A stretch of DNA of 64,000 bases from Anaerobiospirillum thomasii (GTDB lineage: Bacteria > Pseudomonadota > Gammaproteobacteria > Enterobacterales > Succinivibrionaceae): assembly GCF_900445255.1 (NCBI RefSeq), contig NZ_UAPU01000007.1, forward strand, positions 124,001 to 188,000. Direction: 5' to 3'. This document shows, in pieces, positions 17,467-54,165 of the stretch. Below the pieces are notes generated by a model. The model was not told the DNA's origin and searched no databases. It was given only the letters and a program-made list of their open reading frames with translations. Both the position numbers and the translations under genes were made by a program. How positions within the stretch are numbered: the stretch's first letter is position 1; the number at the start of each line of letters is the position of its first letter.

Positions 17467-18504
<1,038 letters not shown>

Positions 18505-18517
18505 TACGGAGTAGAGA

Positions 18518-19684
18518 ATGCTGCCCTATAGTACACAATGTATCGATGATAAGGATATAGAGGCAGTAACCTCTGTCCTGAGATCACCTTATTTAACCAC
18601 AGGTCCTAAGGTACCTGAATTTGAACAGGCCATCTGCGCCTATACAGGCGCAGCTCATGCCTGCGCCATGTCATCGGCCACAGCCGCACTGCATATATCC
18701 CTGTTAGCTCTTGGAATAAAACCTGGTGATATTGTCTATGTCAGTGCCATATCCTTTGTTGCAAGCTCCAACTGCGCACTGTACTGCAATGCTTCAGTTG
18801 AATTTGTAGATGTCAATAAAGATACTGGCAATCTTGATATTGATGCTCTGACAGCAATGCTAAGTCAGGCCAAAAAGAACAATACCCTGCCCAAGGCTTT
18901 AGTCTGCGTGCATCTGTCTGGCCGTAGCTGTGATATGAAGGCCATACACGCTTTATCTAAAGAATATGGTTTTGCAGTGGTTGAAGATGCCTCCCATGCT
19001 CTTGGTGCCTCCTATGATGGCTCTAAGGTAGGATGCTGCCGCTACAGCGATATTACAGTCTTTTCACTCCATCCTGTAAAAATCATAACTACAGCCGAAG
19101 GCGGTCTTGCCCTGACCAATAATGCCGATCTTGCCTACAAACTGCAGTTGCTGCGCTCGCATGGTATTACCCATGACAAAGAGCATATGCAAAATAAGGA
19201 TATGCCATCTTTTTACTATGAGCAGTGCGATCTTGGCTATAACTACCGCATGACTGATATGCAGGCAGCCTTAGGCCTCTCACAGCTTACAAAGCTTGAT
19301 GACTTTGTAGCCAAAAGAGGTGAGCTTGCGCGCAACTATCTCTCTCTTATTGATATAGATGGTATAGAGCTGCCAGTGCCTGACAGTACTGACAATATAT
19401 CATCATGGCATCTGTTTCAGATAAGAGTGCAGGATAATAAACGTGATGCTCTGTACACAGCCATGCGCGGGCATGACATAGGCGTGCAGGTGCACTATCT
19501 GCCAATCTACAGACATCCTTACTATCAGGCTATGCAAAAATACGCCCCTTTGGCCGGAGCAGAGAGCTTTTTCAGTCAGACTCTGTCTATACCGCTTTTT
19601 GTAAAATTAACCAAAGAGCAGCAGATAGAAATTGTTATTGCCAATATTAAGTCTTTAATGGCTTCAATCAGACAAGGATCATAG
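18518..19684 (+). CDS. pseC: UDP-4-amino-4,6-dideoxy-N-acetyl-beta-L-altrosamine transaminase PseC
   Basis: PLP enzyme of the DegT/DnrJ/EryC1 family that aminates the PseB product. It has 388 residues. The PLP lysine is in FSLHPVKIITTAEGG (the SxHxxK motif). VVEDASHALGASYDG carries the pyridine-binding Asp. YNYRMTDMQAALGLSQL is the family block near the C-terminal domain. It starts 14 bases after pseB behind CGGAG and is followed immediately by pseF. Confidence 0.93.
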   Translation: MLPYSTQCIDDKDIEAVTSVLRSPYLTTGPKVPEFEQAICAYTGAAHACAMSSATAALHISLLALGIKPGDIVYVSAISFVASSNCALYCNASVEFVDVNKDTGNLDIDALTAMLSQAKKNNTLPKALVCVHLSGRSCDMKAIHALSKEYGFAVVEDASHALGASYDGSKVGCCRYSDITVFSLHPVKIITTAEGGLALTNNADLAYKLQLLRSHGITHDKEHMQNKDMPSFYYEQCDLGYNYRMTDMQAALGLSQLTKLDDFVAKRGELARNYLSLIDIDGIELPVPDSTDNISSWHLFQIRVQDNKRDALYTAMRGHDIGVQVHYLPIYRHPYYQAMQKYAPLAGAESFFSQTLSIPLFVKLTKEQQIEIVIANIKSLMASIRQGS

Positions 19685-19685
19685 T

Positions 19686-20381
19686 ATGCAGAGTATTGCC
19701 ATTATTCCAGCTCGCGGCGGTTCAAAAAGAATACCTTTAAAAAATATCAAGGATTTTAACGGCAAACCGCTTATTGCCTACTCAATTGAGGCTGCCCTCT
19801 ACTCAGGAGTGTTCAATGAGGTTGTAGTCTCAACTGACGATGAGCAGATTGCAGCTATTGCCCGTGATTTTGGCGCTGTTACCCCATTTATGCGCGACAG
19901 TGCTTTGGCCGATGACTTTACAGGCACAGATGATGTAACTTTAGATGCTGTACGTCAGATGGAGAGCATACGTCGTGTCCACTATGACTATTTTGCCTGC
20001 ATCTATGCCACAGCTCCGCTGTTAAAACCTTATGATCTGCAAAAGGCCTATGATAAATTCATAACCGAAAAGGCAGATTATCTGTACTCCTGCTGTGAAT
20101 TTCCATTCCCTGTACAAAGAGCTCAGTATCTTGATAAAGACGGTACTCCATGCCCATTTATGCCAGACTGCTATAATATGCGCTCACAAGATCTTAAAAA
20201 AGCCTATCAGGATGCAGGACAGTTTTATTTCTACTCCCGCAACTTTTTAGAAGATAAAGCCAATCTTGTCAGAAGAGCCTATGAAATGCCACGCCTTAGA
20301 GTAATTGATATTGATACTCCTGAGGACTTTGAAATTGCCAAAGTCATGGCTACAGTCATAGAAAGTATGCATGTCAAATAA
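19686..20381 (+). CDS. pseF: Pseudaminic acid cytidylyltransferase PseF
   Basis: Activates pseudaminic acid with CTP to CMP-Pse. It has 231 residues, a GT-A-like nucleotidyltransferase. The CTP-binding loop is IIPARGGSKRIPLKNI (6-21). VVVSTDDEQIAAIA and YATAPLL, together with the Asp-rich C-terminal IDIDTPEDFEIAK, match PseF/NeuA proteins. The last 11 bases overlap pseG, indicating coupled translation. Confidence 0.93.
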   Translation: MQSIAIIPARGGSKRIPLKNIKDFNGKPLIAYSIEAALYSGVFNEVVVSTDDEQIAAIARDFGAVTPFMRDSALADDFTGTDDVTLDAVRQMESIRRVHYDYFACIYATAPLLKPYDLQKAYDKFITEKADYLYSCCEFPFPVQRAQYLDKDGTPCPFMPDCYNMRSQDLKKAYQDAGQFYFYSRNFLEDKANLVRRAYEMPRLRVIDIDTPEDFEIAKVMATVIESMHVK

Positions 20382-21378
20382 AGATAAAAAGACAATTGCC
20401 GTGGTGCTGCGTGCCGATTTTGCTTTAGGCACGGGGCATCTTATGCGTGTCAAAACCCTGCTAAACTCCCTTGGCAGTGATTTTGACTATTATCTTTTTG
20501 CAACAGACTTTGATGATAAGCTCAAAGCCCTTGCCACAGAGTATAAAGATATTGTCTGTGCCCCTCTTTGTACCCTTGAGAGAAAAATCAAAGAGATGTC
20601 GCCTGATGCCATCATCTTTGATCACTACTTTTTAGATGCCTCTTTTGAAAGTCTCTTTTATGTAGACAGTAAAATTATCATAATTGATGATCTTGCCAAC
20701 AGAGAACACAAAGCCCATGTGCTTATAGATCCAAGTATTGGCAGGCAGAGTATAGATTATGCAGATCTTGTCAATAAAGAGTGTGAGCTGTATACAGGGC
20801 AGCTGTATGCTCTTATCAAGGATGACTTTGTACAGATTCTAAACAGCTCTGACAGAGTATGTGACCGCAGAGTTTTAATTGCCTATGGCGGCGCCGATCC
20901 GGCTCATGCCACACTAAAGGCTGTAAAAAGTATAACTGCAGATAAGAGAGTTGCTGACTACACATTTACCGTGCTTTCTGGTAAGGTCAATCCAGACTAT
21001 GATCTTATAAAAGATCTCTGCGCCCCTTTTGACAATATTAAAGTTCTGCGCCACAGTGATAATGTCCCTGCTCTTATACTGCAGCACTCCCTGGCCCTTG
21101 GTGCCTACGGCGGCATGTTCTCAGAGCGCATTATAAGCAAGGTGCCATCTATCTGTACCTCTATTGCCTCCAATCAGGATAGAGGACGCAGCATTATTCA
21201 AAATACACAGGTAGGAGTCAATCTTGAGCTGTCTGAGCTTGAGAATAAGGATCTTATCTTCAGCGCCCTGCTTGAGCTTGAAACACACTACGGCTTTTAT
21301 GTAAGTCAGTGCAAAAAAGTCTTTGATGGCAAGTCTCTTGAGAGAATCAACAATATAATTAAAATTTTATTAAAATAA
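20371..21378 (+). CDS. pseG: UDP-2,4-diacetamido-2,4,6-trideoxy-beta-L-altropyranose hydrolase PseG
   Basis: Removes UDP from the diacetamido sugar before condensation by PseI. It has 335 residues. GTGHLMRVKTLL (about 20-31) carries the catalytic-type GxGHxxR motif near the N-terminus. IIFDHYFLDASFE, IIDDLANREH and LIAYGGADPAHATLK match PseG of the GT-B fold (MurG-like). A terminator follows at 21542. pseH (acetyltransferase) and pseI (synthase), needed for a complete pathway, are not in the window. Confidence 0.9.
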   Translation: MSNKDKKTIAVVLRADFALGTGHLMRVKTLLNSLGSDFDYYLFATDFDDKLKALATEYKDIVCAPLCTLERKIKEMSPDAIIFDHYFLDASFESLFYVDSKIIIIDDLANREHKAHVLIDPSIGRQSIDYADLVNKECELYTGQLYALIKDDFVQILNSSDRVCDRRVLIAYGGADPAHATLKAVKSITADKRVADYTFTVLSGKVNPDYDLIKDLCAPFDNIKVLRHSDNVPALILQHSLALGAYGGMFSERIISKVPSICTSIASNQDRGRSIIQNTQVGVNLELSELENKDLIFSALLELETHYGFYVSQCKKVFDGKSLERINNIIKILLK

Positions 21379-21783: not shown

Positions 21784-22707
21784 ATGGCACTTTTTGTTAA
21801 TACCAATGTCTCTTCAATCAATGGTCAGCGCAATTTAACCAACGCTACCAATAATTTAAATACTACCTATCAGAGATTATCATCTGGTATGCGCATCAAC
21901 TCAGCCAAAGACGATGCCGCCGGTCTGCAGATCTCCGATCGTTTAACCTCACAGATCAATGGTTTAAATCAGGGTAACCGCAATACCAACGATGGCATAG
22001 CCCTTGCCCAGACAGTTGAAGGCGCCATGGATGAAATGACCACCATGCTCCAGCGCATCCGTACTCTTGCAGTACAGTCAGCCAACGGTACCAACAATCA
22101 AAAGGACCGTGATGCCCTGCAGCAGGAAGTAACTCAGCTCTCAACTGAAATTTCTCGTATTGCTGAGCAGACAAGATTTGGTGGTGAGCAGGTTCTCTAC
22201 GGTACAGATGGTAATAACAGACGCGGTCTTGTTTCCAGTCTTGGTACCATTATGATTCAAGTAGGTGCCTATAATGGTGATACCCTGACCATGACTGGCT
22301 TCTCACAGGGCTTTACTGTATCAGGAATATCCTCTCAGGCCAATGGCGCAGCCATTGCAGCAGACGCCAACGCAGAAGGTCTGTTAGTAGAGGGCAATAT
22401 TGCAAGATTCTCAGTAAGTATGCAGTCAACATCTGCAAGTACCATCGCAGGTGTAGATAAATTAATTCAGGCTGTAGATAAACAGCGCGCTCACTTAGGT
22501 GCCATGCAGAATCGTATGGAATCAACCATACGTAATCAGTCCAATATCTCTATGAACGTATCTGATGCCAGATCACGTATCCGTGATACAGATTTTGCCG
22601 AAGAGTCAGCCAAACTCTCTCAACAGACGATTATTCAGCAGGCTGCAAGCTCTATGCTTACCCAGGCCAACACCAGACCACAGCTGGCTCTGTCCCTGCT
22701 TGGCTAA
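21784..22707 (+). CDS. fliC: Flagellin 1 (MALFV family), first of a tandem array
   Basis: Filament subunit, 307 residues, without large D2/D3 outer domains. N-terminal D0/D1 (about 1-134) starts [21 protein letters not shown]-terminal D1/D0 (about 224-307) ends QLALSLLG. The middle (135-223) is the variable, Ser/Thr-containing outer part. It differs from its neighbours by [12 protein letters not shown], with Glu in place of Cys at the Cys-Gln-Thr position of paralogues 2-5. Strong Shine-Dalgarno AGGAGGG. It is transcribed from the sigma54-type promoter upstream and probably reads through into flagellins 2-4. It is a likely target for pseudaminic acid. Confidence 0.96.
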
Positions 22708-22745
22708 CAGTTTTTAATGATGCGATATTTTAAAGGAATTTAAAA
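22708..22745 (+). repeat. 38-bp flagellin spacer, copy 1
   Basis: Spacer between flagellins 1 and 2 containing the AAAGGAAT ribosome site. It is identical to the spacer at 23658-23695 and nearly identical to 24623-24660. No promoter or terminator is visible, which supports co-transcription. Confidence 0.85.
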
Positions 22746-23657
22746 ATGGCACTTTTTGTAAATACTAACGTATCTTCAATTAATGGCCAGCGTAATTTAA
22801 CCAACGCTACCAACAATTTAAACACAACCTATCAGAGATTATCATCTGGCATGCGCATCAACTCAGCTAAAGATGATGCCGCAGGTCTTCAGATCTCAGA
22901 TCGTTTAACCTCACAGATCAATGGTTTAAATCAGGGTAACCGCAATACCAACGATGGCATAGCTCTTGCCCAAACAGTTGAAGGCGCCATGGATGAAATG
23001 ACAACCATGCTGCAGCGTATTCGCACTCTTGCAGTACAGGCTTCAAACGGTACCAATAATCAGAAGGATCGTGATGCCCTGCAGCAGGAAGTAACTCAGC
23101 TCTCAACTGAAATAACCCGTATTGCCTGCCAGACTCGTTTTGGTGGTGAATTAGTTCTAGCCGGTGCAGATAAAGGCATAATCAGTGCTGAAGGAACTAT
23201 TAAACTTCAGGTAGGTGCCTATAATGGTGACACCCTCACCATGACCGGCTTCTCTCTTGGCTTTACAGTATCTGGTATTGCCTCACAGGGTGGTGGTGCA
23301 ACTATTAATGGTGATGCAAATACTGATGGTTTATTAAAAGACGGCGATCTTGTTAGATTCTCTGTAAGTACACAGACAGTATCAGCAAATACTATTTCTG
23401 GTGTAGATAAATTAATTCAGGCTGTAGATAAGCAGCGCGCTCACTTAGGTGCCATGCAGAATCGTATGGAATCAACCATACGTAATCAGTCCAATATCTC
23501 TATGAACGTATCTGATGCCAGATCACGTATCCGTGATACAGATTTTGCCGAAGAGTCAGCCAAACTCTCTCAACAGACCATTATTCAGCAGGCTGCAAGC
23601 TCTATGCTTACCCAGGCCAACACCAGACCGCAGCTGGCTCTGTCCCTGCTTGGCTAA
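22746..23657 (+). CDS. fliC: Flagellin 2 (MALFV family)
   Basis: Filament subunit of 303 residues. The conserved N-terminal block (to about residue 134, [12 protein letters not shown]) and C-terminal block are almost identical in DNA to those of flagellins 1 and 3. Only about 85 central residues differ, with [25 protein letters not shown] shared in part with flagellin 1. A single Cys in the D1 region (IACQTRFGG) is unusual for a flagellin but is shared by paralogues 3, 4 and 5. It lies 38 bases from both neighbours on the same transcript. Confidence 0.96.
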   Translation: MALFVNTNVSSINGQRNLTNATNNLNTTYQRLSSGMRINSAKDDAAGLQISDRLTSQINGLNQGNRNTNDGIALAQTVEGAMDEMTTMLQRIRTLAVQASNGTNNQKDRDALQQEVTQLSTEITRIACQTRFGGELVLAGADKGIISAEGTIKLQVGAYNGDTLTMTGFSLGFTVSGIASQGGGATINGDANTDGLLKDGDLVRFSVSTQTVSANTISGVDKLIQAVDKQRAHLGAMQNRMESTIRNQSNISMNVSDARSRIRDTDFAEESAKLSQQTIIQQAASSMLTQANTRPQLALSLLG

Positions 23658-23695
23658 CAGTTTTTAATGATGCGATATTTTAAAGGAATTTAAAA
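23658..23695 (+). repeat. 38-bp flagellin spacer, copy 2
   Basis: Exact copy of the spacer at 22708-22745. The identity extends into the flanking coding sequence on both sides, which marks a recent duplication or gene conversion. Confidence 0.85.
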
Positions 23696-24622
23696 ATGGC
23701 ACTTTTTGTAAATACTAACGTATCTTCAATTAATGGCCAGCGTAATTTAACCAACGCTACCAACAATTTAAACACAACCTATCAGAGATTATCATCTGGC
23801 ATGCGCATCAACTCAGCCAAAGATGATGCCGCAGGTCTTCAGATCTCAGATCGTTTAACCTCACAGATCAATGGTTTAAATCAGGGTAACCGCAATACCA
23901 ACGATGGCATAGCTCTTGCCCAGACAGTTGAAGGCGCTATGGATGAAATGACCACCATGCTCCAGCGCATTCGTACTCTTGCTGTTCAGTCATCAAACGG
24001 TACCAATAATCAGAAGGATCGTGACGCCCTGCAGCAGGAAGTAACTCAGCTCTCAACTGAAATTACCCGTATTGCCTGCCAGACCCGTTTTGGTGGTGAA
24101 GTTGTACTTGCCGGTGCCTCAGGTCAGGCCGGCGTCATGAAAGGTCTTATTGCCACTGATGGTAGCATTCAGCTTCAGGTTGGAGCTTATAATGGTGACA
24201 CACTTAAGATGACTGGCTTTTCAAGCGGTTTTGTTGTAAGTAGTATCGCCAAGGAAGCTGGTCTTACACCTGCAGCTGCAACAAAAGACGGTTTAATCAT
24301 GACAGCAGCTGGTGCCGCCCGTTTTGCTATTTCAACTCAAACTGACTCTATGGATGCTATTGCATCTGTAGATAAGATGATTGAGGTTATTGACAAGCAA
24401 CGCGCCCACTTAGGTGCCATGCAAAACCGCATGGAATCAACTATACGCAATCAGTCCAACATCTCTATGAACGTATCTGATGCCAGATCACGTATCCGTG
24501 ATACAGACTTTGCCGAAGAGTCAGCCAAACTCTCACAGCAGACCATTATTCAGCAGGCTGCAAGCTCTATGCTTACACAGGCTAACACCCGACCACAGCT
24601 GGCTCTGTCCCTGCTTGGCTAA
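23696..24622 (+). CDS. fliC: Flagellin 3 (MALFV family)
   Basis: Filament subunit of 308 residues, the longest of the first array. The N-terminal DNA is nearly identical to flagellin 2 for about 400 bases. The centre (about 135-224) is its own and carries an insertion ([21 protein letters not shown]) and a more Ala-rich stretch. The C-terminal block starts at [17 protein letters not shown]. The conserved terminal helices pack into the filament core, while the variable centre faces outwards and would give a distinct antigenic surface. Confidence 0.96.
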
Positions 24623-24660
24623 TTGTGTTTAACGATGCGATATTTTAAAGGAATTTAAAA
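24623..24660 (+). repeat. 38-bp flagellin spacer, copy 3
   Basis: Same length and same last 25 bases as copies 1 and 2, with a few changes at the 5' end. It carries the ribosome site for flagellin 4. Confidence 0.8.
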
Positions 24661-25566
24661 ATGGCACTTTTTGTAAATACTAACGTATCTTCAATTAATG
24701 GCCAGCGCAATTTAACTAACGCTACCAATAATTTAAATACTACCTATCAGAGATTATCTTCAGGTCTTCGCATCAACTCTGCAAAAGATGACGCTGCCGG
24801 ACTTCAGATCTCAGATCGTTTAACCTCACAGATCAATGGTTTAAACCAGGGTAACCGCAATACCAACGATGGCATAGCTCTTGCCCAGACTGTTGAAGGC
24901 GCCATGGATGAAATGACCACCATGCTCCAACGCATGCGTACTCTTGCAGTACAGTCTGCCAACGGCACTAACAACACAAAAGATCGTGATGCCATTCAGC
25001 AGGAAGTAACTCAGCTGTCACATGAGATTACAAGAATTGCATGTCAGACCAGATTTGGTGGAAATTCAATTTTAAATGGTACAGCAGCAGCTGGCACATT
25101 ATTGGGGTCTGGTGGCGTTATAACTCTGCAGGTTGGAGCCTACAATGGTGATACCTTAAAGATGACCGGCTTTAGCCTTGGCTTTACCCTGTCAGGAATT
25201 GCCGATTCTGCCGGTATCAAGGCTGCTAATGATACCGCACTGGTTAATGATGGTACTAACAGATTAGCTGTAAGCACACAGTCTTTGGCAGCTGCTGCAA
25301 TTACCATGATTGACAGCTTTGTTGGTGTTATTGACAAACAGCGCGCTCACTTAGGTGCCATGCAAAATCGTATGGAGTCAACCATACGCAATCAGTCCAA
25401 TATCTCTATGAACGTATCTGATGCCAGATCACGTATTCGTGATACAGACTTTGCCGAAGAATCTGCCAAACTGTCACAGCAGACCATCATTCAGCAGGCA
25501 GCCTCATCCATGCTGACACAGGCTAATACCAGACCTCAGCTGGCTCTGTCCCTGCTTGGAGGTTAA
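24661..25566 (+). CDS. fliC: Flagellin 4 (MALFV family), last of the first array
   Basis: Filament subunit of 301 residues, the most diverged member of the array. It has [11 protein letters not shown] instead of [36 protein letters not shown], and an extra C-terminal Gly (SLLGG) as in the second subfamily. The central region (about 135-216) has [23 protein letters not shown] strong hairpin 15 bases after the stop ends the transcript. Confidence 0.96.
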   Translation: MALFVNTNVSSINGQRNLTNATNNLNTTYQRLSSGLRINSAKDDAAGLQISDRLTSQINGLNQGNRNTNDGIALAQTVEGAMDEMTTMLQRMRTLAVQSANGTNNTKDRDAIQQEVTQLSHEITRIACQTRFGGNSILNGTAAAGTLLGSGGVITLQVGAYNGDTLKMTGFSLGFTLSGIADSAGIKAANDTALVNDGTNRLAVSTQSLAAAAITMIDSFVGVIDKQRAHLGAMQNRMESTIRNQSNISMNVSDARSRIRDTDFAEESAKLSQQTIIQQAASSMLTQANTRPQLALSLLGG

Positions 25567-26129: not shown

Positions 26130-27047
26130 CTAGCCAAGCAGTGACAGAGCCAGCTGTGGTCTTGAGTTGGCCTGTGTCAGCATTGAGCTTGCAGCCTGCT
26201 GAATAATGGTCTGCTGTGATAGTTTGGCAGATTCTTCTGCAAAGTCTGTATCACGGATACGTGCACGGGCATCAGATACGTTCATGGAAACATTTGACTG
26301 ATTGCGGATTGATGATTCCATACGGTTCTGCATAGCACCTAAGTGAGCGCGCTGCTTATCTACAGTGTCAATTAACAAATCAACTGTTGCAATTGTAAGT
26401 GTAGCTAAAGATTGAGCAGATACTGTAAATCTTTCAGAACCTGCTGCTCCAGCTAGACCACTTGTTGATGCTGTTGCATCGGCTGCTACTTTAGAACCTG
26501 CTTTAGAGGCTATTCCCATTAAAGTAAAGCCGTTACTGTAAAATGTCATCTCAAGCTTATCTCCCTGATAAGCTCCAACCTGAATTGACACAATACCTTT
26601 TGTATTTATAAGAGCACCTGTCTTACCAGCTGCCAGAATCTGCTCACCACCAAACTTGGTCTGACAGGCAATACGGGTAATCTCATTAGACAGCTGTGTT
26701 ACTTCCTGCTGCAAAGCATCACGATCCTTGGCGTTATTGGTACCGTTGGCAGACTGCACTGCAAGAGTACGAATACGCTGCAGCATAGTGGTCATTTCAT
26801 CCATGGCGCCTTCGGCTGTCTGAGCTAAAGCTATGCCATCATTGGTGTTGCGGTTGCCCTGATTTAAACCATTGATCTGTGAGGTTAAACGATCTGAAAT
26901 CTGAAGGCCGGCGGCATCATCTTTTGCAGAGTTAATGCGCATACCTGATGATAATCTCTGATATGTAGTATTGAGATTATTAGTAGCATTGGTAAGGTTG
27001 CGCTGACCATTAATTGATGAAACGTTGGTATTTACAAAAAGTGCCAT
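26130..27047 (-). CDS. fliC: Flagellin 5 (MALFV family), singly transcribed
   Basis: Filament subunit of 305 residues on the opposite strand from the array. It shares the MALFV N-terminal block, with Ala for Val at AQTAEGAMDEM, and the C-terminal block with small changes (MESSIRNQSNVSMN, DARARIRD, TQANSRPQ). The central part (about 135-222) is unique: ILAAGKTGALINTKGIVSIQ and a Ser/Ala/Thr-rich run near 185. Unlike the other eight flagellin genes it has an excellent sigma28 promoter, so it should be expressed as a late gene independent of sigma54. Confidence 0.96.
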   Translation of the reverse strand: MALFVNTNVSSINGQRNLTNATNNLNTTYQRLSSGMRINSAKDDAAGLQISDRLTSQINGLNQGNRNTNDGIALAQTAEGAMDEMTTMLQRIRTLAVQSANGTNNAKDRDALQQEVTQLSNEITRIACQTKFGGEQILAAGKTGALINTKGIVSIQVGAYQGDKLEMTFYSNGFTLMGIASKAGSKVAADATASTSGLAGAAGSERFTVSAQSLATLTIATVDLLIDTVDKQRAHLGAMQNRMESSIRNQSNVSMNVSDARARIRDTDFAEESAKLSQQTIIQQAASSMLTQANSRPQLALSLLG

Positions 27048-35756: not shown

Positions 35757-36671
35757 ATGGCTCTTTATGTAAATACTAACGTTTCAGCCATTAATGGCCA
35801 ACGTAAACTTACAAATGCAACCAATGCGCTTAATGTTTCATATCAGAGATTAGCATCAGGTCTTAGAATCAACTCAGCCAAAGACGATGCTGCAGGACTT
35901 CAGATCTCTGATCGTCTTACCTCTCAGATCAACGGTTTAGGCCAAGGCAATAGAAACTGTAATGACGGCATTGCCTTTGCTCAGACAATTGAAGGCGCCA
36001 TGGATGAGATGACCAATATGCTGCAGCGCGTCAGAACTCTCTCCATTCAGGCTGCCAACGGTACCTATTCTGCTGATGATCGTGTTTCTATTCAGCAGGA
36101 AATTGAGCAGCTATCAGCTGAAATTACTCGTATTTCCTGTAAAACAACATATGCAGGTAAAACTGTATTAAATGGCTGGGCAGCAGGCGGCAACACCATT
36201 ATTGGCTCAGACGGAAATGTAACATTCCAGGTTGGCGCCAATGCCAATGACACTATTCAGGTTACTAATATGTCAACTGGCTTTATGTTATCTGTTATCG
36301 CATCTAAAGCCAATATAAGACAATTAGATGATACAACTGGATTTAAAACTGCTAATGGTGGTATATCTTTTTCAGTATCAAATCAATCTCAGGCACAGTT
36401 AACTCTTGGCAATATTGATAAATTAATCCAGGTTATTGACTCGAAGCGTGCCGAGCTTGGTGCTGTACAAAACCGTATGGAATCAACCATCAGAAATCAG
36501 GCCAACATTCAGGAAAATGAGTCAGATGCCCGTTCACGTATCCGTGATACAGACTTTGCAGAGGAAACCGCATCATTAACTGCAAATCAGATATTGCAGC
36601 AGGCTTCACAGACTATTTTATCCCAGGCCAATCAGAGACCACAGATTGCTCTGTCTCTGCTTGGAGGTTAA
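35757..36671 (+). CDS. fliC: Flagellin 6 (MALYV family)
   Basis: Filament subunit of 304 residues and first of the second flagellin array. It has [45 protein letters not shown] and SCKTTYAGKTVLNG, which set this subfamily apart from the MALFV group. The C-terminal block is IDSKRAELGAVQNRMEST...QPQIALSLLGG-like. The variable centre is about residues 145-215. The gene has its own promoter and is followed by a terminator, so unlike the first array each member is a separate unit. Confidence 0.96.
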   Translation: MALYVNTNVSAINGQRKLTNATNALNVSYQRLASGLRINSAKDDAAGLQISDRLTSQINGLGQGNRNCNDGIAFAQTIEGAMDEMTNMLQRVRTLSIQAANGTYSADDRVSIQQEIEQLSAEITRISCKTTYAGKTVLNGWAAGGNTIIGSDGNVTFQVGANANDTIQVTNMSTGFMLSVIASKANIRQLDDTTGFKTANGGISFSVSNQSQAQLTLGNIDKLIQVIDSKRAELGAVQNRMESTIRNQANIQENESDARSRIRDTDFAEETASLTANQILQQASQTILSQANQRPQIALSLLGG

Positions 36672-37029: not shown

Positions 37030-37977
37030 ATGGCTCTTTATGTAAATACTAACGTTTCAGCCATTAATGGCCAACGTAAACTTACAAATGCAACCAATGC
37101 GCTTAATGTTTCATATCAGAGATTAGCATCAGGTCTTAGAATCAACTCAGCTAAAGACGATGCTGCAGGTCTTCAGATCTCTGATCGTCTTACCTCTCAG
37201 ATCAACGGTTTAGGCCAAGGCAATAGAAACTGTAATGACGGCATTGCTTTTGCCCAGACAATTGAAGGCGCCATGGATGAGATGACCAATATGCTGCAGC
37301 GTGTCAGAACTCTCTCCATTCAATCAGCCAACGGCACATATTCAGCTGAAGATCGTGTTGCTATTCAGCAGGAAATTGAGCAGTTATCAGCTGAAATTAC
37401 CCGTATTTCATGTAAAACCACCTATGCCGGAAAAACTGTCCTTAATGGATTTAGAACAGCACAAACAGGTGGTGCCGCTGGCGGTAACAGTGACTCAACC
37501 ATTATCGGTTCAAATGGTAGCGTGACTTTCCAGGTTGGTGCTAATGCCAACGACACCATTGCAGTAGCTGGCATGTCAAAAGGCTTTATGCTTTCCATGA
37601 TAGCCTCACAAGCAGGAATTACAACTCTAAATGATACAACAGGTTTTAAAGCTATAAATGGCGTTGGTATTTCCTTCTCTGTATCAAATCAGTCTCAGTC
37701 ACAGTTAACACTTGGTAATGTTGATAAATTAATTCAGGTTATCGACTCAAAGCGTGCTGAGCTTGGTGCTGTACAAAACCGTATGGAATCAACCATCAGA
37801 AATCAGGCCAACATTCAGGAAAATGAGTCAGATGCCCGCTCACGTATCCGTGATACAGACTTTGCTGAGGAAACTGCATCATTAACTGCAAATCAAATAT
37901 TGCAGCAGGCCTCACAGACCATTTTATCCCAGGCCAATCAGAGACCACAGATTGCTCTGTCTCTGCTTGGAGGTTAA
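37030..37977 (+). CDS. fliC: Flagellin 7 (MALYV family)
   Basis: Filament subunit of 315 residues, the longest of the nine. The extra length is a Gly/Ala/Ser/Thr-rich loop after residue 143 (RTAQTGGAAGGNSDSTIIG), in the surface-exposed centre. The terminal blocks are nearly identical in DNA to flagellins 6 and 8. It is separately transcribed, with a variant sigma54 promoter and its own terminator. Confidence 0.96.
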   Translation: MALYVNTNVSAINGQRKLTNATNALNVSYQRLASGLRINSAKDDAAGLQISDRLTSQINGLGQGNRNCNDGIAFAQTIEGAMDEMTNMLQRVRTLSIQSANGTYSAEDRVAIQQEIEQLSAEITRISCKTTYAGKTVLNGFRTAQTGGAAGGNSDSTIIGSNGSVTFQVGANANDTIAVAGMSKGFMLSMIASQAGITTLNDTTGFKAINGVGISFSVSNQSQSQLTLGNVDKLIQVIDSKRAELGAVQNRMESTIRNQANIQENESDARSRIRDTDFAEETASLTANQILQQASQTILSQANQRPQIALSLLGG

Positions 37978-38306: not shown

Positions 38307-39221
38307 ATGGCTCTTTATGTAAATACTAACGTTTCAGCCATTAACGGCCAACGTAAACTTACAAATGCAACCAATGCGCTTAATGTTTCATATCAGAGAT
38401 TAGCATCAGGTCTTAGAATCAACTCAGCCAAAGACGATGCTGCCGGTCTTCAGATCTCTGATCGTCTTACCTCTCAGATCAACGGTTTAGGCCAAGGCAA
38501 TAGAAACTGTAACGACGGCATTGCCTTTGCCCAGACAATTGAAGGCGCTATGGATGAGATGACCAATATGCTGCAGCGCGTAAGAACTCTCTCCATTCAG
38601 GCTGCCAACGGTACCTACTCACAGGAAGACAGAAAATCAATTCAGCAGGAAATAACTCAGTTATCAACTGAAATTACCCGTATTGCCTGTAAGACCACAT
38701 ATGCAGGTAAAACTGTATTAAATGGCTGGGCAGCAAATAATAATACAATTATCGCTTCTGACGGCAATGTAACTTTCCAGGTTGGCGCCAATGCCAATGA
38801 CACTATTCTGGTTACTAATATGTCAACCGGCTACATGTTATCCATGATTGCATCCAAAGCCGGTATTACAAACTTTAATACTACAACAGGCCTTCATACA
38901 GAAAATGGTCAAATTAGATTCTCAGTTACCAATCAGTCACAGGCACAGTTAACCCTTGGTAATATTGACAAATTAATCCAGGTTATCGACTCAAAGCGTG
39001 CTGAGCTTGGTGCTGTACAGAATCGTATGGAATCAACCATCAGAAATCAGGCCAACATTCAGGAAAATGAGTCAGATGCCCGCTCACGTATCCGTGATAC
39101 AGACTTTGCTGAGGAGACTGCATCATTAACTGCAAATCAAATATTACAGCAGGCCTCACAGACCATTTTATCCCAGGCCAATCAGAGACCACAGATTGCT
39201 CTGTCTCTGCTTGGAGGTTAA
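38307..39221 (+). CDS. fliC: Flagellin 8 (MALYV family)
   Basis: Filament subunit of 304 residues. It begins like flagellins 6 and 7. From residue about 108 it carries [26 protein letters not shown], which it shares with flagellin 9 rather than 6/7, so it is a mosaic of the two halves of the array. The variable centre is about 145-215 (NNNTIIASDGNVTFQVGANANDTILV). A terminator and the conserved 3' block follow. Confidence 0.96.
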   Translation: MALYVNTNVSAINGQRKLTNATNALNVSYQRLASGLRINSAKDDAAGLQISDRLTSQINGLGQGNRNCNDGIAFAQTIEGAMDEMTNMLQRVRTLSIQAANGTYSQEDRKSIQQEITQLSTEITRIACKTTYAGKTVLNGWAANNNTIIASDGNVTFQVGANANDTILVTNMSTGYMLSMIASKAGITNFNTTTGLHTENGQIRFSVTNQSQAQLTLGNIDKLIQVIDSKRAELGAVQNRMESTIRNQANIQENESDARSRIRDTDFAEETASLTANQILQQASQTILSQANQRPQIALSLLGG

Positions 39222-39551: not shown

Positions 39552-40487
39552 ATGGCTCTTTACGTCAATACCAACGTTTCTGCCATTAATGGCCAGCGTA
39601 AGCTTACCAACTCTACAAATGCCCTTAATGTTTCATATCAGAGATTAGCATCTGGTCTTAGAATCAACTCAGCTAAAGACGATGCTGCAGGTCTTCAGAT
39701 CTCTGACCGTCTTACCTCTCAGATCAACGGTTTAGGCCAGGGCAACAGAAACTGTAATGACGGCATTGCCTTTGCCCAGACAATTGAAGGCGCTATGGAT
39801 GAAATGACCAATATGCTGCAGCGTGTCAGAACCCTCTCCATTCAGGCTGCCAACGGCACTTATTCTACCGAGGACAGAAAGTCTATTCAGCAGGAAATTA
39901 CTCAGCTTTCAACAGAAATTACCCGTATTGCCTGCAAAACAACATATGCTGGTAAAACTGTTTTAGATGGATTTAGAGTAAACGCAGCAGGTGGCGGTAA
40001 CAGTAATACAACCATCATAGGATCAGATGGTAAAGTAACCTTCCAGGTTGGTGCCAATGCCAATGACACCATTGCCGTAACAGATATGTCAAAAGGCTTT
40101 ATGCTTTCAATTATCGCCTCAAGAGCAGGTATAACAGCTTTTAATGACACAACTGGTTTTGTTAACTCTAATGGACTAGTACGTTTCTCTGTAACTAATC
40201 AGTCACAGGCTCAGTTAACTTTAGGCAATATTGACTCTATGATTCAGGTTATTGATTCAAAACGTGCCGAGCTTGGTGCTGTACAGAACCGTATGGAGTC
40301 AACCATCAGAAATCAGGCCAACATTCAGGAAAATGAATCTGATGCACGTTCACGTATTCGTGATACCGACTTTGCTGAGGAGACCGCTGCACTTACTGCC
40401 AATCAGATATTGCAGCAGGCCTCACAGTCTATTTTATCCCAGGCCAATCAGAGACCACAGATTGCTCTGTCACTGCTTGGCGGTTAA
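39552..40487 (+). CDS. fliC: Flagellin 9 (MALYV family)
   Basis: Filament subunit of 311 residues, last of the second array. The most diverged member at DNA level: NSTNALN near the N-terminus, VNAAGGGNSNTTIIG loop at about 147, NIDSMIQVIDSKRAE, and EETAALTANQILQQASQSILSQ. An out-of-frame ATG four bases upstream is ignored. It has a different terminator and no copy of the shared 3' block, so the duplication boundary lies at this gene. Confidence 0.96.
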   Translation: MALYVNTNVSAINGQRKLTNSTNALNVSYQRLASGLRINSAKDDAAGLQISDRLTSQINGLGQGNRNCNDGIAFAQTIEGAMDEMTNMLQRVRTLSIQAANGTYSTEDRKSIQQEITQLSTEITRIACKTTYAGKTVLDGFRVNAAGGGNSNTTIIGSDGKVTFQVGANANDTIAVTDMSKGFMLSIIASRAGITAFNDTTGFVNSNGLVRFSVTNQSQAQLTLGNIDSMIQVIDSKRAELGAVQNRMESTIRNQANIQENESDARSRIRDTDFAEETAALTANQILQQASQSILSQANQRPQIALSLLGG

Positions 40488-52222: not shown

Positions 52223-52377
52223 TATAGCACTTCTACTTCTAACACCCTCGCATCTGTTCATATCCCATTGTAATTAAAGCTTATTTTTATCAATTTAACC
52301 TTGATTTTTTAAGGCTATTGTTCTATTATTCTTATATAAATTGTGTGCTTACTGTGTTACAACTGGGCGGTGTAAAA

Positions 52378-54165
52378 ATGATTTATTTAGACAAAACGGT
52401 TGATATTCCAGTATCTAATGTATACTTTCGCCAAAGAGGCCCTGATTTATACATTTGTGAATTTATAGAGCCTTGGAAAGATGATGATGGCTCAAGAAAG
52501 AGCAATCGCAAGCGTCGCATCATCGGGGTACCTGTAAATGGCGAGCGTACTGACACACAAATGCACCCAAATGAAAACTATTACAAACTAAGAAATCTTG
52601 CACTACCTGAGGCTAATTACGCTAAAGTTGGTCTGCCAGGGAAGCACACATCTTTTGAATACGCACCAGGTGCTGTAATATATCCAGCGTTTCCGGCCAT
52701 TGCCTATATAGCACTCCTTCAGTCAGGGTTATACGATAAACTCATAGAAGCCTTTAAAGATTCAAGACTTGTTGACTCTATGTGCTTTATAGCAACAGTA
52801 TACGCATCTGGCAGAACATCGCTTGAAGCACTTGAAGAGCTGTCTACTACCTTTAACGCTTTCAATGATGCACAAGGAGTAACATCGCAGGCTGCATCTT
52901 ACCTAATGCGCAATCTTGATACCAAAAAACTGCGTGATTTCTTCAAGTTATGGATCCCTTATGCATCAGGAAGCGACTGTCTGGCTTATGATGTAACTGC
53001 CTTTACTTCAAAAGCAAAACTTATGAGAGAGGCAGAGTATGGCTACACACATGGAACTGTAGAAAATCTGCCACTTGTAAACTATGCCTTATTTAGCAAT
53101 GAGCGTACTGGCATACCTGTCTTTTTTGATCATTATTCAGGAAGTCTTACCGACAAAGCCAATCTCAAGAATATTATTGATACAGCGCTAGATCGCAACC
53201 TCCCAGAGAATATTACTCTCGTTATGGACAGAGGTATGACAACGCTTGATAATCTCAGACACCTTAAAGAGCTTAAATTAAAATTTATTGTAGGTGTTCC
53301 TGGAACTATAAAGGCTGTTGACGAATATCTGAGCTCTATTGCTACTAAAGAGCAATCTATAACCAATACCATAACTTTAAAGACGCGCAGTGGTGAGTGC
53401 GAGACCTTATATTGCTACACTGAGGACTTTATCTGGAACGATGTAAAACTCAAACTGCATTTATACCAAAGCGTTCAAAGGCGTGCCAATAAGATGGCAG
53501 ATTTCTTTTCATCCCTTGAGGAGTGTAAGAGAGCTATTGCCGATACCAAAGAGCTTCCATCAGGAGCCTGTATAATGGCAGATGTAAAAAACTGCTTTGT
53601 GTATCAAGGAAAAGGCCGAGGTAGAAAATTAGTTCTTGATGAAGCTATAGCTCAAAAATATGTTAATCGTCTTGGTACTTTTGCCTTATTTTCAGAGCCT
53701 GAAGCTAACTATACAGCACAGAATGCTTTGGAATATTATAGAAGGCGTGAAATTGATGAGGCTAACTTTGATATTTTAAAAAATGACCTTAACGGCCTGC
53801 CGTTGGGCATTCACAACCAGAGCTCCTTAGACGGCAAATTCTTTATTCTCTTCATAGCTTTGGTTATAAAAAGAACCATTATGCAACGCATTAGAGGCTT
53901 TCTGCGCTCTAATAATAAATCTTATAAATATGCCGTTGAGACTTTGAACAATATTAAAGTTGAGTTTAGAGAAAGCGAGATCGCAATACTTGAATCAGGT
54001 CAGGTTGAGAAAAATCTTGATTACTTACATCAGGTTAATGCTCCAACCAAGTTTGCAAAATCTTTGCTGGCAGCAATAGTAGATCCGGATGGGCTTATAG
54101 TAAAAAAATCATACTTAAATCTAAAGGTCAAAAGAAAAAAAACAAAAGTTAGAGTGAAAAAATAA
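52378..54165 (+). CDS. IS4/IS1634-type DDE transposase
   Basis: Cuts and joins the element ends. ATG 52378 gives 595 residues; an earlier frame start at 52318 has no ribosome site. DDE residues: Asp205 in LAYDVTAF, Asp284 in LVMDRGM, and Glu461 in the IS4 signature Y(2)R(3)E(6)K, seen exactly as Tyr454, Arg457, Glu461, Lys468. GKFFILFIALVIKRTI is a typical downstream helix. The long insertion between the second Asp and Glu is as in IS1634 members. The tail is very basic (KRKKTKVRVKK). No frameshift or stop is seen, so the protein looks functional. Confidence 0.92.
   Translation: MIYLDKTVDIPVSNVYFRQRGPDLYICEFIEPWKDDDGSRKSNRKRRIIGVPVNGERTDTQMHPNENYYKLRNLALPEANYAKVGLPGKHTSFEYAPGAVIYPAFPAIAYIALLQSGLYDKLIEAFKDSRLVDSMCFIATVYASGRTSLEALEELSTTFNAFNDAQGVTSQAASYLMRNLDTKKLRDFFKLWIPYASGSDCLAYDVTAFTSKAKLMREAEYGYTHGTVENLPLVNYALFSNERTGIPVFFDHYSGSLTDKANLKNIIDTALDRNLPENITLVMDRGMTTLDNLRHLKELKLKFIVGVPGTIKAVDEYLSSIATKEQSITNTITLKTRSGECETLYCYTEDFIWNDVKLKLHLYQSVQRRANKMADFFSSLEECKRAIADTKELPSGACIMADVKNCFVYQGKGRGRKLVLDEAIAQKYVNRLGTFALFSEPEANYTAQNALEYYRRREIDEANFDILKNDLNGLPLGIHNQSSLDGKFFILFIALVIKRTIMQRIRGFLRSNNKSYKYAVETLNNIKVEFRESEIAILESGQVEKNLDYLHQVNAPTKFAKSLLAAIVDPDGLIVKKSYLNLKVKRKKTKVRVKK

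Follow-up and report, generated by a model that had tools for sequence, protein, structure and literature searches.

How do neighbouring flagellin genes come to share nearly the same ends, and even the same non-coding spacer, around centres that differ? The window analysed here, that is, the whole 64,000-nt stretch of contig NZ_UAPU01000007.1 of Anaerobiospirillum thomasii (contig C7 of a 3.0-Mb assembly in 10 contigs), raises this question with nine flagellin genes in two groups, F1–F5 (family A) and F6–F9 (family B), whose best named relatives by flagellin are Anaerobiospirillum and other Succinivibrionaceae. We consider it likely that these are modular, mosaic flagellins formed by homologous recombination, and that the flagellin genes of this genome are in addition the target of a mobile element of the IS110 type (IS, insertion sequence), which carries a flagellin gene as cargo. 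The nine genes are as follows.

21784–22707, plus strand: F1, flagellin of family A (open reading frame (ORF), alignment)
22746–23657, plus strand: F2, flagellin of family A (ORF, Pfam Flagellin_N and Flagellin_C)
23696–24622, plus strand: F3, flagellin of family A (ORF, alignment)
24661–25566, plus strand: F4, flagellin of family A (ORF, alignment)
26130–27047, minus strand: F5, flagellin of family A, sigma-28-like promoter with 11-bp spacing (ORF, promoter pattern)
35757–36671, plus strand: F6, flagellin of family B, TGGCA-type (sigma-54-like) site upstream (ORF, promoter pattern)
37030–37977, plus strand: F7, flagellin of family B, TGGCA-type site upstream (ORF, promoter pattern)
38307–39221, plus strand: F8, flagellin of family B, mosaic with F6/F7-like ends and an F9-like inner stretch (ORF, site patterns)
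39552–40487, plus strand: F9, flagellin of family B (ORF)

A near-identical block crosses two gene junctions

F1–F4 stand in tandem, head to tail, with spacers of 38 bp each; the F1–F2 and F2–F3 spacers are identical to each other. Comparison of the junctions showed that the likeness extends far beyond these spacers.

22450–22972, plus strand: J12, the C end of F1, the spacer and the N end of F2; 519/523 nt identical to J23
23400–23922, plus strand: J23, the C end of F2, the spacer and the N end of F3; 519/523 nt identical to J12
24623–24660, plus strand: F3–F4 spacer, 38 bp, 34/38 identical to the F2–F3 spacer

The block, with four mismatches over 523 bp, begins in one gene and stops in the next, and comprises the final 86 codons of the upstream gene (stop counted), the spacer and the initial 75 codons of the gene that follows. 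Ungapped identity is 66/100 nt in the stretch preceding it and 90/100 nt in the stretch following it, and junction 3–4 is clearly less similar (C 0.917, spacer 0.895, N 0.924). A near-identical end, 38-bp spacer and start at junctions 1–2 and 2–3 was what the sequence-only reading of this locus had claimed, and it is borne out. The roughly 85 differing central codons of the same claim fit a hypervariable stretch at about codons 135–222, codons 76–134 being of intermediate divergence.

We measured synonymous divergence (dS) in the parts of each gene pair. For F2/F3, dS was 0.02 in the N block (codons 1–75), where the family-A median is 0.84, and 0.42 in the C block; for F1/F2, it was 0.05 in the C block (family-A median 0.59) and 0.43 in the N block. 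The centres of these two pairs had dS values of 1.9 and 1.2, respectively. Since low dS is confined to one half of the gene in each pair, the near-identical unit is C–spacer–N rather than the gene. As judged from the sequence, J12/J23 is the latest exchange event seen in the window.

Were there no recombination at all, the likeness of the blocks would have to stem from strong purifying selection on the flagellin ends. Non-synonymous divergence (dN) in family A is indeed much lower in the N and C blocks (medians 0.019 and 0.056) than in the centre (0.574), and the pairwise homoplasy index (PHI) test described below is not significant for this family. However, purifying selection alone fails because the near-identity includes silent sites and is limited to one half of each pair; the identity of the non-coding spacer and the conflict between N and C relationships also speak against it. 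We therefore regard this explanation as very improbable.

Tandem duplication by unequal crossing-over, with a centre that later diverged or was replaced, could have produced J12/J23 instead of gene conversion, and the equal length of all the 38-bp spacers and the nearly constant gene size agree with it. The centres of F1, F2 and F3 are, however, far apart (dN 0.26–0.60, dS 1.2–1.9), so plain duplication is insufficient and recombination is still needed. We retain it as a possible route to these junctions, though not the one that we favour.

N and C blocks of the flagellins have different relatives

Under the recombination that we favour, homologous exchange (gene conversion or unequal crossing-over) would act in the conserved N and C blocks and the short spacers, making blocks locally alike and re-pairing them with different centres. 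We compared N with C blocks in 24 genes of the genome (16 of family A and 8 of family B); the pseudogene L019, the fragment L025, two copies of the cargo flagellin, the divergent L018 and L024, and two diverged flagellins of the same genome stood outside this set.

Third-position distances in the N and C blocks were less correlated than those of random codon splits, both in family A (r 0.32 versus a random-split mean of 0.62, p 0.001) and in family B (r 0.50 versus 0.80, p 0.0035). The same was observed for family A minus F1–F4 (p 0.0005) and for F1–F5 of the window (p 0.017). Within the N block, the corresponding p was 0.10 in family A and 0.031 in family B. The nearest relative was the same by N and by C in 3 of the 16 family-A genes (random-split mean 7.3; 1/1000 as low) and in none of the 8 family-B genes (mean 2.0; 10/1000 as low), and the same across N, C and centre in 2/16 and 0/8. 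The N and C blocks differ in their nearest relatives, and the genes are therefore mosaics; recombination between paralogues within a genome leaves just such disagreement among gene parts at silent or third positions.

The sequence-only reading had proposed a GARD or GENECONV run on the nine genes. Within the window, a purpose-written, GENECONV-like permutation test on silent sites gave a significant result for the pairs F2/F3 (global p 0.021 among F1–F5) and F6/F7 (p 0.034 among F6–F9). Genome-wide, with all sites, the pair formed by C7:761489 and the cargo flagellin (p 0.0006) and that of C5:321328 and C7:730368 (p 0.0498) passed globally in family A; in family B, 2/28 pairs passed with the N block alone and 0/28 with the C block alone. 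PHI was significant in family B (N+C p 0.001, N alone p 0.006). Approximately unbiased (AU) tests of N trees against C data, and of C trees against N data, gave p 1.7e-36 and 0.0002 in family A, and 0.0004 and 0.0027 in family B, where random codon splits gave 0.036–0.48 and the result thus exceeds its own controls.

Several results weigh against this account. The two family-A pairs are few among 120, and none of the 28 family-B pairs passed globally with all sites; with the N or the C block taken singly, 0/120 family-A pairs passed. PHI was not significant in family A (N+C p 0.59, N alone p 0.91), nor was the distance correlation in F6–F9 alone (p 0.11). The AU test of family A is confounded and not decisive, because its random splits were rejected as well (0.00016–0.046). 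Thus, the earlier view that exchange reshuffles gene parts is supported as intragenic recombination by the distance correlations and the nearest relatives, but not by PHI in family A or by the correlation in F6–F9. That recombination between the flagellins is still ongoing appears plausible.

F8 had been read as a mosaic between F6/F7 and F9. We observed that 23 of its 76 informative sites are F9-like and clustered (scan permutation p 0.0002), the main cluster being at nt 323–378 and the centre being mixed, and that F8 tracks F6/F7 over nt 1–240 and from about nt 680 on. It is a mosaic, but no simple recombinant of these genes: the donor is F9-like, and F8–F9 identity at nt 301–360 is merely 47/60. 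One interrupted gene has a C half (L031:7210–7890; C5:690170–690880) that is a chimera of the two families, A-like through RDTDFAEE and B-like after it.

An IS110-type element interrupts three flagellin genes at one codon

Three family-A flagellin genes of the genome are interrupted at one codon, and in the same orientation, by an element of about 5.9 kb. The insertion point follows the Asn codon of NRNTN, at Asn–Asp codons 69–70.

C5:683000–692000 (L031): element copy 1, flagellin halves at C5:684047 and 690170
C5:1141000–1153000 (L032): element copy 2, flagellin halves at C5:1142305 and 1148430
C7:758000–777000 (L033): element copy 3, with nested IS66, flagellin halves at C7:775109 and 764641

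Two of the copies measure 5919 and 5924 bp, and the C7 copy measures 9796 bp owing to the nested IS66. Each consists, in order, of an IS110 recombinase gene (383 aa), about 600 bp of non-coding DNA, a complete flagellin gene on the opposite strand, a gene for an IS110-like protein of 811 aa, and about 490 bp of non-coding DNA. The dinucleotide GA is common to both element ends and forms the first two bases of the Asp codon of the target. The copies are 99.9–100% identical except in a poly-C tract and the nested IS66, while their flagellin flanks (N 0.84–0.87, C 0.78–0.83) are as different as paralogues are (means 0.86 and 0.80); these are therefore three separate insertions. Long BLAST matches had suggested that the element spread by copying via homologous flanks, which was ruled out as the flanks diverge like paralogues.

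Repeats of this kind are difficult to assemble, and we have a single assembly, so the array or its junctions might in principle be an artefact. We consider this hardly credible: the 3.0 Mb fall into so few contigs, three near-identical copies of 5.9–9.8 kb were resolved at different places, and arrays of the same layout occur in relatives.

Each recombinase gene has three copies in the genome. The 383-aa protein matched NF033542 with 193.8 bits (cut-off 140), PF01548 with 29.2 (cut-off 29) and PF02371 with 55.2; the 811-aa protein matched PF02371 with 48.1 and NF033542 with 50.7, the latter under the cut-off. The columns D29, E74, D111 and D114 are invariant in four recombinases, namely the two here and two of a related element in a sister species, and the Ser preceding an invariant Gly, to which we presumably may assign a catalytic role, is Thr in the 811-aa protein. 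The element shows two hallmarks of the IS110 family: a DEDD recombinase with a C-terminal Transposase_20 domain and, in 3/3 copies, insertion at one site, in one orientation and with a short core common to both ends.

A pattern made from the target site had 13 unoccupied matches genome-wide, all within flagellin genes or pieces, and the reversed control had none. Five of these are in the window.

21982–22001, plus strand: unoccupied target copy in F1 (pattern match)
22944–22963, plus strand: unoccupied target copy in F2 (pattern match)
23894–23913, plus strand: unoccupied target copy in F3 (pattern match)
24859–24878, plus strand: unoccupied target copy in F4 (pattern match)
26830–26849, minus strand: unoccupied target copy in F5 (pattern match)

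As the pattern was derived from flagellin sites, these matches show that no other genomic place has it, and not that the element reads exactly this pattern. F6–F9 deviate on the left side of the site. F1–F4 have one identical 20-mer target, which lies within the homogenised N block, so that homogenisation would also spread landing sites.

The cargo flagellin and its promoter tract

The cargo flagellin ORF is intact in 3/3 copies, with ribosome-site-like and promoter-like sequence. We searched for sigma-28-like promoters by a regular expression built on the sigma-28 consensus. Outside the cargo, 12 sites were found, with a spacing of 11 bp in 10 of them and 12 bp in two (L016 reads 11 if anchored on TAAA); the pattern had no match for F1–F4, C7:729245 and the fragment L025. 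All nine MALYVN genes have a TGGCA site and a T-run upstream, which we take to be sigma-54-like.

In the cargo promoter, the spacer between −35 and −10 is a poly-C tract of 9, 14 or 11 nt in the three copies plus one G, giving 10, 15 and 12 bp. Thus, a homopolymer between the two promoter elements varies in length, as slippage would produce, subject to assembly error; all the lengths were read from a single assembly, and errors are common in homopolymers, which speaks against relying on the tract. C tracts of at least 9 nt occur at 16 genomic places, three of which are the cargo promoters. Promoter switching by slippage is known in other bacteria, and we infer that the poly-C tract may switch cargo expression. 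Among the other places, a tract of 13 lies near a frame break in a glycosyltransferase-like ORF (L205, C5:922548–922572; by eye), possibly another phase-variable gene, and two further tracts, at C1:11771 and C6:248270, reach 16. The silent-site run that the cargo has in common with its neighbouring gene C7:761489 spans 28 silent sites (global p 0.0006).

The element, with its two IS110-type recombinase genes, has inserted three times at Asn–Asp codons 69–70 of family-A genes. Each insertion breaks the host flagellin and brings a complete one behind a sigma-28-like promoter, whose −35/−10 spacing is set by the poly-C tract. The net effect would be the targeted loss of one flagellin and the gain of another that may switch. 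The benefit of such changes may be an altered filament surface towards antibodies and phages.

A diverged element in a sister species begins at the same flagellin codon

The 383-aa protein has relatives in 12/56 family genomes (E<=1e-25) and 4/295 order genomes (E<=1e-40), our own genome being included in both counts. When 21 loci with such relatives were checked for flagellin pieces, only one, L164 of the same-genus genome G011, was positive. In this genome (contig G011:C167; L212:10537–14498), residues 1–68 of a flagellin are cut at the same codon and followed by an IS110 recombinase of 460 aa, which is 34% identical to the 383-aa protein over 339 aa. The second IS110-like ORF of that element, 511 aa counted from ATG, is a weak relative of the 811-aa protein (26% over 133 aa). 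The best evidence against a chance address is that two diverged elements, in two species, both begin at this flagellin codon.

The 811-aa protein had no relatives at E<=1e-20 in 55 other family genomes, and none in IMG/VR or genome_contigs, where our own genome is possibly not included. Elsewhere in G011 (L214, G011:C19), a degenerate remnant of the 460-aa recombinase is flanked on one side by a C-terminal piece of a flagellin and on the other by the start of a flagellin; as it is not a simple insertion, we did not count it as one. Tandem IS110-type gene pairs also occur elsewhere in the family, at G039:C13:848–3761 and G043:C97:698–3591, with no flagellin piece in the flanks examined.

These data can also be read as an ordinary IS110 insertion sequence for which flagellins are merely harmless and numerous landing sites, with a cargo acquired by chance and without a role. 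With about 30 intact flagellins, the loss of one would be harmless. No flagellin was seen between the recombinases of the sister-species element, whose contig stops ahead of the right junction, and this counts against a general role for the cargo. Nevertheless, the cargo ORF and its ribosome-site-like and promoter-like sequence are preserved in all the copies, and only the promoter tract varies. We regard this alternative as a serious contender, with a probability somewhat short of even.

More tentatively, the element may belong to an RNA-guided IS110-type group addressed to flagellins, which would knock out the resident gene, supply a slippage-switched one of its own and feed the recombination pool of the host arrays with its cargo, so that both processes jointly diversify the flagellins; as a whole, we hold this to be rather unlikely.

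As part of the account that we favour, and by analogy with other IS110 elements, we infer that an element-encoded RNA might guide insertion. The right end of the element has words that match target and donor beside the core, the 7-mer matches being near chance, and the fold of this region had a z of −2.15 (6/200 shuffles equally stable). In a guide-RNA scan of 8 segment/strand combinations, the best was equalled by 2, 2 and 3 of 100 shuffles, which after correction is not significant. An Rfam scan at E<=1 gave four weak matches, none at the gathering score, and the non-coding DNA of the elements of the two species showed weak matches only.

Flagellin numbers in this genome and its relatives

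A search of the genome with F2 gave 41 matches. Of these, 28 are intact and long (three being the cargo copies) and two are intact and diverged (51 and 52%), so that the genome has about 30 intact flagellins in two families. Two damaged genes contribute three further matches (one per piece) and the three interrupted genes contribute six (one per half); a hook-associated-protein-like ORF, recognised by eye, and a weak match complete the list. The damaged genes are C7:637687 (L019) and C5:664089–664978 (L025); one has an in-frame stop and one is split into two frames near codon 35.

This census bears on whether the window arrays are donors in a silent-cassette system of antigenic variation, of the vls or pilS type. 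Modular exchange and conserved flanks would suit such a system, but 28/30 long matches have complete ORFs, those that are incomplete belong to genes that were interrupted or damaged, and most genes, F2–F4 aside, have a promoter-like site ahead of them. Incomplete donors combined with one expression site were not found among these genes, and we think a silent-cassette system improbable.

Flagellin_C (PF00700) matches numbered 36 in this genome, 42 in the sister species G011, 42 in G004, 94 in G010, 20 in G027 and 13 in G019. Anaerobiospirillum sp. NML120449 (G003, 5.0 Mb) had at least 150 among 170 candidates, with 32 complete flagellin ORFs within the nine stretches examined. Across the family, F2 had matches in 49/54 genomes, with at least 43 matches in several. 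Arrays of at least three flagellin genes, by start motif, were found in 8 of the 13 stretches of relatives examined (one stretch, G030, without an ORF). Neighbouring genes in these arrays are 0.81–0.97 alike in C and N blocks and 0.53–0.80 in the centres; none of the 13 stretches had a junction pair as similar as J12/J23.

Comparison with known systems

Intragenomic recombination has been described for flaA/flaB of Campylobacter jejuni (Harrington 1997 and Wassenaar 1995, cited in PMC5126078). There, one gene is of the sigma-28 and one of the sigma-54 type, and, as we propose here, neighbouring flagellin genes exchange, with filament variation as the proposed outcome. Unlike these two genes, the present system has some 30 genes in two families, junction units whose likeness extends over the borders between genes, and, in addition, a mobile element.

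Large tandem flagellin families are also known from Magnetococcus MC-1 and MO-1 (PMC7175107 and PMC8306008). Their 14–15 flagellin genes, termed the highest number to date, are described without an obvious IS element or duplicated flanks (PMC7175107), and 15 is the highest number given in two reviews (PMC8306008, PMC7175107). The numbers in A. thomasii and in NML120449 are well above this, and the part of the open-licence literature that was surveyed held no report of such flagellin numbers in Anaerobiospirillum. For the question of why bacteria keep many flagellins, this group is an extreme case in which two sources of change can be seen, namely paralogue exchange and a flagellin-carrying mobile element that resides in flagellin genes.

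IS110-type elements are RNA-guided and can be engineered to move cargo (PMC11187229, PMC11208160). The present element resembles the IS110/IS1111 elements with bridge RNA or seekRNA in those sources in its DEDD recombinase, Transposase_20 domain, single preferred target, shared end dinucleotide and fixed orientation. It differs from them in its two recombinase genes, its flagellin cargo and a target within flagellin genes. The strings 'flagell' and 'passenger' are absent from the main text of PMC11187229, and no paper combining IS110 with flagellin was found in the surveyed part of the open-licence literature.

The FRphi prophage, a mobile element that encodes TldR and FliCP, combines a flagellin of its own with an RNA-guided factor that acts on that of the host (PMC13418256). 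Like FRphi, the present element carries a flagellin isoform and acts against host flagellin expression; unlike the prophage, with its RNA-guided transcription factor, it does so by insertion into the host gene. A TnpB-derived regulator beside a flagellin in a prophage is the mark of the TldR system, and no TnpB- or TldR-like protein was recognised among the ORFs of our element. In copy 1 (L031), the ORFs of at least 70 aa encode the two IS110-type proteins and the flagellin, with one more running antisense to the 811-aa gene; a Pfam scan of the two IS110-type proteins and the flagellin showed no TnpB domain. Should its address prove to be RNA-guided, the element would join the flagellin-remodelling prophages as a second kind of mobile element that turns RNA guidance on the host flagellin while bringing its own; it would also offer a natural IS110 target open to direct testing.

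Other features of the window

Immediately upstream of F1, window positions 17476–21378 hold genes that resemble a pseudaminic-acid pathway, as judged by eye; their place beside F1 suggests that the flagellins may be glycosylated. Further downstream, positions 52318–54165 encode an IS1634-family transposase (NF033559, 168.1 bits).

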